DNA from: Candidatus Sulfopaludibacter sp. SbA3
GTDB taxonomy: Bacteria > Acidobacteriota > Vicinamibacteria > Vicinamibacterales > UBA2999
Reading direction: 5' to 3'
Assembly (NCBI GenBank): GCA_945876205.1
Contig: CAMCNL010000010.1
Coordinates: 1 to 33,250 of the forward strand
Length of the DNA: 33,250 bases
Positions within the stretch are counted from its first letter, which is position 1. Each line of letters starts with the position of its first letter. The position numbers and the translations under genes are program-made. Positions 4,952 through 17,543 of this stretch are shown here, one piece after another. The notes beneath the pieces are model-generated. The model worked only from the letters and a program-made list of their open reading frames with translations, was not told the origin of the DNA and made no database searches.

Positions 4952-5851
4952 ATGCGTCCTTTGCTCGTTTCCGGACTCCTTCTGCTCACGGCTGTCGTGG
5001 CCTCCACGCAGGAGCCGACGTTCAAGTCGAGCACCCGTATCGTCCCGGTCATCACCACCGTGACCGACGCGCAGGGGCGGCTGGTGCCGAATCTCGAACG
5101 CGAAGAGTTCACGATCCTCGATAACGGCAAGCCGCAGGACATCACCTTCTTCCAGAACGACGTTCAGCCGTTTACTGTCGTCGTGATGCTCGATTACAGC
5201 GCCAGCATGACCGCGAATCTCGACCTGCTGAAGAACGCCACGGAGCAGTTCCTCCTGCGCCTGCTGCCCGCCGACCGCGGGCAGGTCGGTTCCTTCAGCG
5301 ACAAGATCCAGTTCAGTGGCACGTTCACCAACAACCGCGACGATCTGATTTTCGCGCTGAACGATCTGCAGTTCGGCAACCCGACACGCCTCTACGATGC
5401 GATGGACGCGAGCATGGACATGCTCAAGGACGTTGACGGACGCAAGGTCGTCCTGATCTTCACCGACGGCGACGACACCTCCAGCCGCACCGGCTTTGGC
5501 CAGGTGCTCGATCACGCCCGCGATGACGAAGTGATGATCTATGCGATCGGCCTGGAGTCGGAGTATTTCAACGGGCAGCGGATGGTGCGCTCGCGTCCCG
5601 CCGGTTCGCTGAAGCGGCTCGCCGAGGAGACCGGCGGCGGCTACTTCGAGTTGAAGAAGACCGACGACCTGTCGCCGACGTTCAGCCGGGTCGCGCAGGA
5701 GCTGCACAGCCAGTACACGCTCGGGTTCACGCCGGCGGTGCTCGACGGCAAGGAACACAAGCTGCTGGTGCGCATGAAGCAGCCGGGGATGAACGGCCGC
5801 GCGCGGCGCTCGTACGTCGCCGCCTCCGACCGCCTGACGAGCACCCAGTAG
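4952..5851 (+). CDS. Secreted VWA-domain protein, acidobacterial VWFA-related family
   Basis: Exported 299-residue protein with a signal peptide (1 to about 19), a short beta domain (VTDAQGRLVPNLEREEF, typical of this family) and a von Willebrand A domain. The metal-ion-dependent adhesion site is intact: D81-x-S83-x-S85, a threonine in NPTRLYDAMD and aspartate in FTDGDD. The C-terminal beta region carries the SQYTLGFTP motif that marks the acidobacterial VWFA-related family. Such proteins probably bind other proteins in the periplasm or at the surface; the partner is unknown. It is transcribed divergently from the TonB receptor and is followed by a hairpin and the cyaY homologue. Two further members occur at 26237 and 27144. 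Confidence 0.88.
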   Translation: MRPLLVSGLLLLTAVVASTQEPTFKSSTRIVPVITTVTDAQGRLVPNLEREEFTILDNGKPQDITFFQNDVQPFTVVVMLDYSASMTANLDLLKNATEQFLLRLLPADRGQVGSFSDKIQFSGTFTNNRDDLIFALNDLQFGNPTRLYDAMDASMDMLKDVDGRKVVLIFTDGDDTSSRTGFGQVLDHARDDEVMIYAIGLESEYFNGQRMVRSRPAGSLKRLAEETGGGYFELKKTDDLSPTFSRVAQELHSQYTLGFTPAVLDGKEHKLLVRMKQPGMNGRARRSYVAASDRLTSTQ

Positions 5852-5873
5852 GGCGGGTCCTTTCGGACCCGCC
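5852..5873 (+). repeat. GGCGGGTCC palindrome (hairpin) before cyaY
   Basis: A perfect 9-base inverted repeat (GGCGGGTCC, loop TTTC, GGACCCGCC) begins directly after the VWA stop codon and ends 8 bases before the cyaY start. There is no T-tract, so it is not a classical intrinsic terminator. Related palindromes with the same TAGGGCGGGTC lead-in occur at 24538-24594. Confidence 0.8.
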
Positions 5874-10745: not shown

Positions 10746-13190
10746 GTGACGTCATCTTTGATTCTTATGCGGGTTCTCGTTGTCTTTACCATCTTCCTGT
10801 CCCTTCCGGCCCTGGTTTGCGCCCAGGGAACCGCCATTCTTTCCGGCCGCGTACTCGACATGCAGGGCGACGCACCGATCGGTTTTGCGACCATTGCCGT
10901 CGAAAGCCCCACCGCGGCAGCCGGATCGCCGCCCATCGGGGGGGCGCTGGCCGGCGAGAACGGCCGCTTCGTCATACAAGGCCTGTCGCCGGGCCAGTAT
11001 CGAGTCCGGATCACGTTTCCCGGCTTCCTCGAGGCGGAGGCGGACGTGGTCGTCAGTCCCCTGAACCAGACCTACGACCTGGGAGATATCCGCCTTCCGC
11101 GAATCAAGGGCTTCGAGGAACGGATCACGGTCACCGCCGAGACCATCCGCGCCGCCGGCCTCGACACGCAGGTGTTCAGTGTCGGTGACGGACCGATCCA
11201 GTCGACTGGCACCATGCTCGACGCGCTGAAGAACGTCCCGGGTGTGACGGTCGATCAGGAGGGAAAGGTCTCTCTGCGCGGCAGCGACAAGGTCGCCATT
11301 CTGATCGATGGGCGGCAGTCGAGCCTCACCGGATTCGGGACTCAGCGCGGGCTGGACAGCGTGTCGGCGGCCAACATCGAGGCGATTGAGATCATCAACA
11401 ACCCCTCTGCACGCTTCGACGCCGCAGGCATGGCGGGCATCATCAACATCATTTACAAGAAGGAACGGCAGCTTGGCTGGTCCGGCGATGTCGGCTTTGG
11501 GCTGGGCGTCGGCCAGTTCACCAAGCAGCGGCGCGACCTTCCGACCGATCTGGGCAGCTTCTCGAACAACGAGAAAGTGATCCCGAGCCTGAGCCTGAAC
11601 TACCGCACGCCGCGGACGCGCACGTTCATACAGGGAGATCTGCTGCTCCAGGACCGGTTGCCGAACAATGAGTTCACCACGCGCTTCTATGACGATGGCC
11701 GCGTGATTGAGTCCCAGGTGCCGGAAAACCGCGAGCAGTATGTCTACACCGTTCGAGGCGGGTCCGACGTTACTCTGAACGACGCGAACACCATCACCAT
11801 CTCGGGCGTCCACAATTACGAGCACCACATCGACGTCGCCCAGGTGCCGTTCATCCTCCAGGCGACGGGACAGCGCGAGCGATTCTGGTTCTGGCGCGAG
11901 GACGAGGGGACCGGGTTCACCAACGGCAACGTCGATCTGACGCACAAGTTCGGCGCGCCCGGCCACGAGCTGGGTGTCAACCTGCAGTTCACTCGGGGGA
12001 AGGAAGACGAGGCGTACTTCCTGAACGAGGAATCGCCGATCCGGATCGGCACCGACGACACCCACATCATCGCCATCGAAAACACGCTGCCGCTCAGCGT
12101 CGACTACACGCGGCCGCTGCCGACCGGCCGCCTGGAGCTCGGCACCAAGTTGCAGCGCCGCTGGATCCCGGTCACCTACACCGTGCGGCGCGGCGTCCAG
12201 AGTGTGATCTACCCGGGCCTCGGGGATTTCTCGGACTGGAACGAGAACATCTTCGCCGGCTACGCCAACCTCGTGCGCATTACGCCGCGCTACACGCTCG
12301 AGGGCGGACTCCGGCTCGAGGACACGCAGGTCTCCTACACGATTCCCACCGAGAACATCTATTACCCGGGGAGCGACAAGTACGACTATTTCGGGGTGTT
12401 CCCGAGCTTGAAGCTCACCCTGAACCTGGCGAGCACCAACCGGATCACCACGGCTTTCAACCGGCGCGTCGACCGTCCAGGGGAACCGGAGCTCCGCATC
12501 TTCCCGAAGTACGACGATCCGGAGATTCTGAAAGTGGGTAATCCGTTCCTGCGGCCCCAGTTCACCAACGCCTACGAAGTGGGATTCTCGCGATCATGGG
12601 TCGGGGGCACGGGCAGCGCCGCCGTCTACCACCGCGACGTCAGCGATGCGTTCCTGCGGATCTTCGCGATCGACGACTCGAATCCCAGCTACGACATCGT
12701 CAACCGCATCTTCGAGAACGCCGGCAACTTCCGCCAGACCGGCGTGCAGTTGACCGCATCGCAGCAGATCGTTCGCCCCTGGCGGATGACCGGCAGCGTG
12801 AACTGGTTCCAGAACGACATCGAGGCGCTCGAGACAATGCTGTTCTTCCCGACGAGACGGCCGTTCACGCTGTCCGCCTCGAAGGACCACACCTGGGACA
12901 TGACGCTCAACAACCGTTTCGTCCTGCCTCGGGGGCTCGAGTTTCAGGCGAACTACATCCGCTACGCGTCGCGGAATGTGCCGCAGGGGCGCGAACGCCC
13001 CCGGTCGTCGCTCGACTTCTCCGCCAAGCAGCCGTTGATGAACGAGAGGGCCGAGCTCGTCTTCACCTTTACCGACATCTTCAACGACTTCGCGCTCCAG
13101 CACGACATCACCGGCAGCGGCTTTACGGCGCTCTACCAGAATTTCCTGGAGACGCAGGTCGCCACCCTGGGACTGCGATTCCGATTCTGA
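10746..13190 (+). CDS. TonB-dependent receptor-like outer-membrane protein (OMP_b-brl family)
   Basis: Outer-membrane protein of 814 residues from the GTG at 10746. A signal peptide ends at LVCAQ (about residue 27). A carboxypeptidase-regulatory-like domain follows (GRVLDMQGDAPIGFATIAV ... GRFVIQGLSPGQYRVRI), then a plug domain (MLDALKNVPGVTVDQEGKVSLRG, IEIINNPSARFDAAGMAGIINI) and a long beta barrel closing with LGLRFRF. The plug with INNPSARFDAAG is typical of the 'outer membrane protein beta-barrel' receptors common in Bacteroidota and Acidobacteriota. The TonB box is not obvious; GFEERITVTAETI is the best candidate. The ligand is unknown. It is divergent from the frameshifted gene; 10636-10745 should hold both promoters. 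ATG at 10767 is an alternative start. Confidence 0.88.
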   Translation: MTSSLILMRVLVVFTIFLSLPALVCAQGTAILSGRVLDMQGDAPIGFATIAVESPTAAAGSPPIGGALAGENGRFVIQGLSPGQYRVRITFPGFLEAEADVVVSPLNQTYDLGDIRLPRIKGFEERITVTAETIRAAGLDTQVFSVGDGPIQSTGTMLDALKNVPGVTVDQEGKVSLRGSDKVAILIDGRQSSLTGFGTQRGLDSVSAANIEAIEIINNPSARFDAAGMAGIINIIYKKERQLGWSGDVGFGLGVGQFTKQRRDLPTDLGSFSNNEKVIPSLSLNYRTPRTRTFIQGDLLLQDRLPNNEFTTRFYDDGRVIESQVPENREQYVYTVRGGSDVTLNDANTITISGVHNYEHHIDVAQVPFILQATGQRERFWFWREDEGTGFTNGNVDLTHKFGAPGHELGVNLQFTRGKEDEAYFLNEESPIRIGTDDTHIIAIENTLPLSVDYTRPLPTGRLELGTKLQRRWIPVTYTVRRGVQSVIYPGLGDFSDWNENIFAGYANLVRITPRYTLEGGLRLEDTQVSYTIPTENIYYPGSDKYDYFGVFPSLKLTLNLASTNRITTAFNRRVDRPGEPELRIFPKYDDPEILKVGNPFLRPQFTNAYEVGFSRSWVGGTGSAAVYHRDVSDAFLRIFAIDDSNPSYDIVNRIFENAGNFRQTGVQLTASQQIVRPWRMTGSVNWFQNDIEALETMLFFPTRRPFTLSASKDHTWDMTLNNRFVLPRGLEFQANYIRYASRNVPQGRERPRSSLDFSAKQPLMNERAELVFTFTDIFNDFALQHDITGSGFTALYQNFLETQVATLGLRFRF

Positions 13191-13306: not shown

Positions 13307-13381
13307 TGGTACCGGTACGGGGATTCGAACCCCGGTTCCATGGTTGAGAACCATGTGTCCTAACCCCTAGACGATACCGGC
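13307..13381 (-). tRNA. tRNA-Glu (anticodon CTC), CCA encoded
   Basis: Read on the minus strand, a 75-base cloverleaf folds. The acceptor is GCCGGTA with TACCGGT (G1 opposite U72 is a wobble), the D arm contains TAGGGGTTA, the anticodon stem is CATGG/CCATG with loop TTCTCAA giving anticodon CTC, and the T arm is CGGGG-TTCGAAT-CCCCG. The discriminator is A, followed by encoded CCA. CTC reads GAG, so this is tRNA-Glu. Glutamyl-tRNA(Glu) is also the substrate of HemA, encoded at 28941. Confidence 0.95.
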
Positions 13382-15681: not shown

Positions 15682-16644
15682 ATGTTGCTGTACCTGTTCG
15701 CGCTGCTCGTCGCGACCTCGACCGCCGTGCTGATCTTTGCTGGCGGTCTCGTCACGAGCACCGGGTCGGGACTCTCCGTGCCGGACTGGCCGACGACCTA
15801 CGGCTGGTTCATGTTCACGTTTCCGCTCGACAAGATGGTCGGCGGCATCCGCTATGAGCACACCCACCGCCTGATTGCCAGCACGGTCGGATTTCTCATC
15901 GTCATTCTCGCCGTGTGGCTGTGGCGGGCAGAGCCGCGCGCCTGGGTGCGGCGGATGGGATACGTGGCGCTCGCCGCGGTCGTGACGCAGGGCATCCTCG
16001 GCGGTATCACCGTGCTGTGGTACCTCCCCGATCTCGTATCGATTGCGCATGCGGGACTCGCGCAGCTCGTCTTCTGCCTGACGATTTCCATCGCCCTGGT
16101 ACTGTCACCAGGATGGAAATCAGCCTACGAGCCATCGCGGGCCGTAAAGGCCCGCGCCGCATACAACGGTGACCCTGTCCTGCAGCGGATCGCGCTGGCG
16201 ACGACGATCCTCATCTACGTGCAGATTCTCGCCGGCGCGACGATGAGGCACACCGACGCGGGGCTGGCGATTCCCGATTTCCCGTTCGCGTTTGGACGCC
16301 TGATTCCGCCGGTGTGGGACGCGAAGATCGCCATTCATTTCGCGCATCGCGTGGGCGCGCTGATCGTCGCCTCGATGGTCATCGCCACCACGGGGCACGC
16401 CCTCTACCATCACGGGCGGCGTGGTGAGCTTCGGCGTCCATCGATCCTGCTGCTCGCCCTGGTCGCTGTGCAGATCACCCTGGGAGCGCTGACCGTGCTC
16501 AGCGGCAAGCAGTTCATCATCAACTCGCTGCACGTCGTGACCGGTGCGGCGGTCTTCGGGACATCGCTGGTGCTGACGCTCCGCGCTCACCGTCCCAGGT
16601 TTGCATTCGACGCGGCGCCCCGGGCGTACGGGAGCGCGGCATGA
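15682..16644 (+). CDS. ctaA: Heme A synthase (COX15/CtaA)
   Basis: Eight-helix inner-membrane enzyme that oxidises the heme O methyl group to a formyl, giving heme A for cytochrome aa3-type oxidases. It has 320 residues. The first loop has GGLVTSTGSGLSVPDWPTTYGW, and heme-ligand histidines lie in RYEHTHRLIAS and in the second-half FAHRVGALIV; ATMRHTDAGLAIPDFP is the other family signature. The first loop has no cysteine pair, unlike Bacillus CtaA. It ends in an ATGA overlap with ctaB. Two palindromes occupy the loop coding residues about 135-159, described separately. Confidence 0.93.
   Translation: MLLYLFALLVATSTAVLIFAGGLVTSTGSGLSVPDWPTTYGWFMFTFPLDKMVGGIRYEHTHRLIASTVGFLIVILAVWLWRAEPRAWVRRMGYVALAAVVTQGILGGITVLWYLPDLVSIAHAGLAQLVFCLTISIALVLSPGWKSAYEPSRAVKARAAYNGDPVLQRIALATTILIYVQILAGATMRHTDAGLAIPDFPFAFGRLIPPVWDAKIAIHFAHRVGALIVASMVIATTGHALYHHGRRGELRRPSILLLALVAVQITLGALTVLSGKQFIINSLHVVTGAAVFGTSLVLTLRAHRPRFAFDAAPRAYGSAA
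16084..16156 (+). repeat. Two adjacent palindromes inside the ctaA coding sequence
   Basis: The first is ATTTCCATC (16084-16092) paired with GATGGAAAT (16112-16120), with inner CTGGT/ACCAG, making a 14-base stem with one 3-base bulge. The second is CGCGGGCC (16136-16143) paired with GGCCCGCG (16149-16156), loop GTAAA. Both lie in frame, in codons for a loop between helices. The second resembles the GGCGGGTCC palindromes in form. Confidence 0.75.
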
Positions 16645-17543
16645 AGCCGGCGGCGCACGCGGCCAGCGTCCCAGTGGCCACCACCGGCGGCCCTGGCGAT
16701 TTCGTCGAGCTCACCAAGCCGCGCCTCAACATGCTCGTGATCATCACGACGCTGGGGGGCGTCTACCTTGGGTCGCCGTCGGGCGTTCCATTCGCTCTGC
16801 TCCTTCACACGCTCGTCGGCACCGCGCTCGTGGCCGGCGGCGCGGCGGCGCTCAACCAGGTATGGGAGCGCGAAACCGATTCGCTGATGCGCCGCACGCG
16901 CAATCGTCCGCTGCCCGGCGGACGTCTTGGCGTCGCCGAGGCCACGGCGTTCGGATCCCTTCTGTCGGTAGCCGGATTGGTAGAGCTCGCGGTCGCGGTC
17001 AACCCGCTCTGCTCGGCCGTCGCAGCGCTGACGCTGGTGAGCTACGTGTTCGTCTACACGCCGCTGAAGCGGCGCACCTCGCTGGCAACGCTCGTCGGCG
17101 CAATTCCTGGAGCGCTGCCGCCGGTCATCGGCTGGACTGCGGCGACGGGATCGGTGACGCTCCCGGCCGTCGTGCTGTTCGGGATCGTCTTCATGTGGCA
17201 GATGCCGCACTTCCTGGCGATCGCGTGGCTCTATCGCGACGACTATGCGGCCGCCGGAATTCCGCTGCTGCCGGTGCTCGAACCCGACGGCCGGCGCACC
17301 GGACAGCAGGCGTTTCTCTATGCCGCCGTGCTCTGGCCCGTGAGCCTGCTGCCCGCCGGCGTCGGACTCTCCGGCCTGCCGTACAGCATCGTCGCCACCG
17401 TGCTCGGCTTCCTGCTGATCGGCCTGGCCGCGGCGTTCGCTCGCGAGCGCTCGATGCTCGCGGCCCGCCGCCTCTTCCTCTTCTCGATCATCTACCTGCC
17501 GCTGCTCTGGACCGCTCTGATCATCGATCGCCTGTTTCTCTAG
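16641..17543 (+). CDS. ctaB: Protoheme IX farnesyltransferase (heme O synthase)
   Basis: Integral membrane UbiA-family prenyltransferase of 300 residues that attaches farnesyl to heme B, making heme O, the substrate of the preceding enzyme. Motifs are FVELTKPRLNML, the Mg-diphosphate site N-x3-E-x3-D in ALNQVWERETDSLMRRT (the first Asp is Glu, as in many homologues), YTPLKRRT and MWQMPHFLAIAWLYRDDY. Its ATG overlaps the stop of ctaA, so translation is coupled. About nine hydrophobic helices are seen. Length is normal. Confidence 0.95.
   Translation: MKPAAHAASVPVATTGGPGDFVELTKPRLNMLVIITTLGGVYLGSPSGVPFALLLHTLVGTALVAGGAAALNQVWERETDSLMRRTRNRPLPGGRLGVAEATAFGSLLSVAGLVELAVAVNPLCSAVAALTLVSYVFVYTPLKRRTSLATLVGAIPGALPPVIGWTAATGSVTLPAVVLFGIVFMWQMPHFLAIAWLYRDDYAAAGIPLLPVLEPDGRRTGQQAFLYAAVLWPVSLLPAGVGLSGLPYSIVATVLGFLLIGLAAAFARERSMLAARRLFLFSIIYLPLLWTALIIDRLFL

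Follow-up and report, generated by a model that had tools for sequence, protein, structure and literature searches.

What are two strong palindromes doing inside the gene for heme A synthase? The question is raised by a stretch of 33,250 nucleotides, here called the window, which is contig C10 of its own genome (G000; 4.06 Mb, 391 contigs, 97.65 % complete). A sequence-only reading had placed both palindromes in frame in ctaA, and that is where they are (Table 1). The answer is not the same for the two. Hairpin 2, the downstream palindrome, is very probably a mobile REP element of the GTAG superfamily, with a GCGG tag, that lies in frame in ctaA. Hairpin 1 is something else.

Table 1. Features of the window discussed in the text
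Feature	Position	Strand	Remarks
ctaA, heme A synthase, 320 aa, host gene	15682–16644	+	PF02628 COX15-CtaA, E 2e-37, residues 6–294
Hairpin 1	16083–16121	+	9 + 6 bp stem, 3-nt bulge, 6-nt loop; single copy, not an insertion
Probable REP element (hairpin 2)	16135–16162	+	Stem 16136–16143/16149–16156, loop 16144–16148, unpaired CCGCAT
Tag tetranucleotide GCGG	16157–16160	−	Columns kept in 42–46 of 47 copies
Second, GTAG-tagged palindrome	5848–5873	+	TAG is the stop of ORF 4952–5851; different repeat set
tRNA-Glu (anticodon CTC)	13307–13381	−	

Folding bears out the perfect 8-bp stem with a GTAAA loop that had been proposed at 16136–16156 (−20.4 kcal/mol with short flanks). As 114 of 1000 synonymous-codon shuffles fold equally well, the weight of hairpin 2 comes from its copies and not from its folding energy. 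The earlier reading had suggested a search of the genome for more of both palindromes. Blastn with 16070–16170 against the window's own genome gave, besides the window itself, 41 matches, all of them covering hairpin 2 with its flanks, and no second copy of hairpin 1. A pattern search for hairpin 2 that allowed up to three mismatches found 57 places, of which 10 are a palindrome read a second time, and none in the reversed control. A covariance model, used at a threshold of E 0.01, gave 52 matches in the same genome, and scored the window copy at 50.9 bits over 16135–16171. Relatives have matches too: 26 in G020, 14 in G026, five each in G019 and G027, three in G036, and one each in G025, G028 and G034, where a lone match with E close to 0.01 could be fortuitous. 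Thirty-four of the 43 genomes of the bacterial family have no match to the model. At order level, with E 1e-4, two of 149 genomes matched, the window's own and G026. An exact-pattern scan of 84,980 species genomes, among which records of the window's own genome or very near ones may be absent, gave five single matches in unrelated taxa, which we read as chance.

The copies also evolve as a paired structure would. The consensus of 47 of them is Y-CGCGG(A/G)CC-GTRAA-GGYCCGCG-CCGCATC, with conservation that starts one base 5' of the stem and fades about 35 bases on. Compensatory changes in the stem fill 31 double-change cells, a number reached in none of 500 shuffles; the inner six pairs alone account for 24, and a control with the register slid gives at most one. 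The copy finder required at least six of the eight stem pairs, which biases it to pairing; the blastn and pattern searches had no such rule. Two of the finder's 49 rows were dropped as the same palindrome on the other strand, and alignment A1 omits three of the 47 copies (both overlapping C155 copies, and C90 with its deviant tail). Five of the six reading frames through the consensus are open.

The loop of the family is GTRAA, and on one side CCGC stays unpaired; read on the minus strand, the unit is GAT-GCGG-stem-TTYAC-stem-A. Hairpins of the same type in G020 and G026 carry GTAG, GCAG, GTGG or GCGG at the same place, which ties the family to the GTAG-tagged REPs. The GCGG tag fits GYRG, not the canonical GTAG, and degeneration of GTAG to GYRG is described for REPs of this superfamily in the excerpted text of PMC3733652. 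Inverted dimers occur as four pairs in G000 (C105, C135, C155, C188) and as arrays at G020:C150; most G000 copies, including that in ctaA, are single. A transposase gene (RAYT) flanked by the repeats was seen in G020 and not found in the window's own genome. Other classes fit less well. CGTC REPs, which include RPE-4 and RPE-6, require CGTC with AT first and second pairs, and here the stem starts CG/GC beside a GCGG tag; MITEs span 70–300 bp with terminal inverted repeats of 15–30 bp, and conservation here stops about 35 bp from the left edge. Neither hairpin has a run of T after it, which makes an intrinsic terminator unlikely. An Rfam search of the window found nothing except one tRNA.

Hairpin 2 had also been likened to other palindromes in the window. 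There is indeed one built on GGCGGGTCC, GTAG-GGCGGGTCC-TTTC-GGACCCGCC (Table 1); its set, with 14 places in the genome at up to three mismatches and none in the reversed control, is a second REP set, distinct from hairpin 2, so that the kinship did not hold. Single GGCGGGTCC matches at 11757 and 24586 are only putative members of this GTAG-tagged set.

In the protein, the REP supplies codons 152–160 (S152–A160, about nine residues) of the linker between TM4 and TM5, and so lengthens the joint between two four-helix halves. The window CtaA is 67–75 % identical to its counterparts in 14 relatives, and ctaB (16641–17543) comes after it. The gene looks functional, since E59, H60, H62, H123, H222 and H284 are invariant in the alignment (A2) of 15 proteins, which leaves out more distant CtaA matches, a short G035 piece and the frame-broken ctaA of G019. 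In an AlphaFold model made from 15 input sequences (mean pLDDT 78.9), residues 153–160 fall below 50, between helices 117–141 and 165–190, and the REP peptide is the lowest-confidence internal stretch. From GW to a conserved D, the linker in the protein alignment has 18 residues in the window CtaA and 7–15 in most relatives; to the earlier reading's question whether the loop insert comes and goes among relatives, the answer for hairpin 2 is yes. L041 has a linker of 20 residues without the hairpin 2 palindrome, so REPs are, to judge from this alignment, not the sole source of linker length. The ctaA of G019 (L054, G019:C370) is broken in the same loop, with its frame lost and about 48 residues missing, and may be a pseudogene or an assembly fault.

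Hairpin 1 had been described as a 14-base bulged stem at 16084–16120, which was near enough: it has 15 bp (−19.9 kcal/mol, z −3.9). It is the strongest palindrome of the window: with one bulge permitted, no other stem in the 33 kb is as long as 15 bp, a length reached in one of 40 dinucleotide shuffles. Its energy alone is unremarkable, as 169 places in the window fold as stably within 47 nt. The suggestion of a REP-like element tolerated inside the gene stands for hairpin 2, with its roughly 50 further copies, and falls for hairpin 1, which we reject as a repeat or insertion because it is single and all 15 CtaA proteins align gap-free across its codons. Nor is it a regular companion of the REPs: strong hairpins are rare beside them, with a stem of at least 13 bp in only two of 98 flanks. 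We lean toward chance or a template switch over a selected RNA element. A template switch (quasi-palindrome mutation), with GATGGAAATC as the arm that was copied back to give GATTTCCATC, is possible, though we would not bet on it. It would suit a single-copy hairpin of which one arm encodes the conserved GWK and the other is its exact reverse complement; but there is no congener among the compared genomes from which to read the ancestral state, and since CCATCGCC also occurs in L043 and L051, no event is needed for part of the match.

The window is not the only place where this ctaA loop holds such an element. G020 has a copy there (G020:C16:5094–5130, model E 0.0058), read in a frame other than that of G000 and followed by further repeat-like DNA. 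Given the different frames, the two insertions were probably independent. G026 has GGCGGGCCGTGAAGGCCC in its ctaA loop; as the model reports nothing there at E 0.01, this is at best a remnant. A single ancestral insertion, lost elsewhere and frame-shifted by small indels, strikes us as unlikely. The two elements do lie in the same loop, a few codons apart, and the tree of the 15 CtaA proteins with the loop removed is nearly a star, too poorly resolved to rule out one origin. Yet the three labelled carriers group in none of 200 bootstrap trees, G021, a member of G020's genus, lacks an insert in the loop, and the frames would still have to be reconciled.

We give less credence still to the idea that selection keeps both hairpins as a functional element of the ctaA mRNA, one that would make the ribosome pause or attract an RNase between the protein halves. 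What makes it worth weighing is that between TM4 and TM5 two strong stems follow each other at a distance of 14 nt and fold as a pair at −40.6 kcal/mol, matched by none of 200 shuffles, with hairpin 1 rarer than synonymous chance (16 of 1000 synonymous-codon shuffles fold as well). Inspected by eye, however, the folds of other ctaA loops have no equivalent pair, hairpin 2 is accounted for by copies in many unrelated genes and in both orientations, and the flanks of other REPs, as described above, seldom hold a second strong stem. That the palindrome merely happens to encode an ancestral, conserved part of CtaA can be practically dismissed: all relatives have a linker of some length, but in most it is one of 7–15 residues with no palindrome and no conserved sequence, and both the repeats elsewhere in the genome and the other frame of the G020 copy contradict it.

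With hairpin 2 taken as a REP, its other addresses become of interest. A gene-context screen covered 90 copies (53 from G000, 23 of the 26 G020 model hits and all 14 from G026), with codon usage trained on 15 ORFs of the window. At least 16 of the 53 G000 copies are enclosed by ORFs, 14 in all, in which the same frame looks coding before and after the copy. All 14 have Pfam matches: CtaA, an RNA uracil methyltransferase (two copies), an amidohydrolase (an overlapping pair), GCV_T, COX3, HSP70, PMT, a glycosyltransferase, CTP_transf_1, an alanine-racemase-like protein, a transglutaminase, a cytochrome c, MurF and a pyridine nucleotide oxidoreductase. Twelve of the 16 copies sit inside the Pfam match of their ORF. 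In alignments to PDB entries, MurF, DapF and a GcvT-like protein have a gap at or close to the REP peptide (in the last shifted downstream), and for polyphosphate kinase the alignment begins after the peptide. For HSP70, solved structures gave no match at the very strict cut-off of E 1e-200. The HSP70 orthologues of L197–L200 are matched without a break, and direct reading finds L198, L199 and L200 without the REP peptide; the HSP70 gene of G020 (L201, G020:C121) has a cluster of different palindromic repeats in the very loop that holds the REP of G000. In alr, REPs lie at nearly the same place, in the same frame and before the IIAVVKANAYGHG motif, in both G000 (L159, G000:C86:9415) and G020 (L139, G020:C63:10154).

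A tolerant loop would explain these same-gene coincidences as well as targeting would. More tentatively, and with the odds against it, we suggest that in this bacterial family different REP palindromes repeatedly enter the same housekeeping-gene loops in varied frames. The transposase would then generate variants of these loops, and single-stranded DNA exposed in the genes might guide it there; the cases behind this are ctaA in two or perhaps three genera, and the HSP70 gene and alr in two each. Genes of this kind seem to have received such an insertion more than once, and to have withstood it. In ctaA, the HSP70 gene and alr, where genera can be paired by filled and empty sites, tolerance versus steering is testable; the case adds a lineage where mobile palindromes often turn into coding sequence.

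What would move such an element? A REP-associated tyrosine transposase (TnpA_REP/RAYT, an HUH enzyme) would recognise the tag and hairpin on single-stranded DNA, cut, and hand the element to new sites. Most surviving copies lie outside genes or at gene edges, and a minority sit in frame in protein loops, kept as short and probably neutral peptides, as we infer for that in CtaA. Nine of the 11 genomes searched have Y1 transposase loci, 23 in all. One of them, at G020:C150 (L178), is a REP-type tyrosine transposase gene with nine model matches around it, arranged GCGG-hairpin-A-hairpin-CCGC; the other 22 have none. Its protein has HVH and RYVLNNP, which we take to be the catalytic motifs, and it is our candidate for the enzyme that moves the hairpin 2 repeats. 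Tandem half units, a tag with one stem arm, also occur at G020:C150 beside the full REP dimers. The single Y1 gene found in the window's genome (L089, G000:C167:4748–5071) has no copy of the hairpin 2 family at its flanks; a cognate transposase was presumably present in this lineage, now or formerly. L089 is adjoined by a palindrome, AATGGGGTCTGACCCCATT, and Y1 genes in G034 and G036 have similar GGGGTCAGACCCC palindromes at their flanks. Against the REP explanation stand this unaccompanied gene, the long linker of L041, the G026 palindrome that the model does not report, and the tag itself, which is GCGG and not GTAG: a GCAG substrate of S. maltophilia was barely cut, according to the excerpted text of PMC8266576. 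The same excerpts have a Marinomonas GTGG substrate cut at CC, which suggests by analogy that CC may be the cleavage site for a GCGG guide. The candidate transposase and its GCGG tag offer a test case for how the tag sets the cleavage site.

The literature searched has no description of this GCGG-tagged family, of the candidate transposase or of repeated occupation of the same loops, and no paper connecting Vicinamibacter with REPs. Among known systems, the TnpA_REP enzymes of E. coli, S. maltophilia and Marinomonas likewise have a tag and a single-stranded hairpin as substrate, and a perfect 8-bp stem is shared by the S. maltophilia REP; those systems use GTAG, unlike the GCGG of hairpin 2 (excerpts of PMC8266576). 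In REPINs, as excerpted from PMC3116915, an inverted REP pair is the mobile unit. Such pairs exist at G020:C150 and on C105 of G000, but most G000 copies, the ctaA one among them, are single. The Rickettsia palindromic elements described in the excerpted text of PMC3733652 are also palindromes in frame within working genes; by that description alone they are set apart, RPE-4 and RPE-6 being CGTC-tagged and RPE-1 longer. The closest likeness is to the GTAG-superfamily REPs and RAYTs of Di Nocera et al. (2013), which in the same excerpts are tagged palindromes of 20–40 bp with compensated stems, inverted dimers, some in-frame genic copies (in one case two species share roughly the insertion site within a gene) and a repeat-flanked transposase gene. 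From these the present family differs in its GCGG tag, within their GYRG, in its 5-nt loop and its host lineage, and in the roughly 30 % of screened copies that lie in frame in genes.
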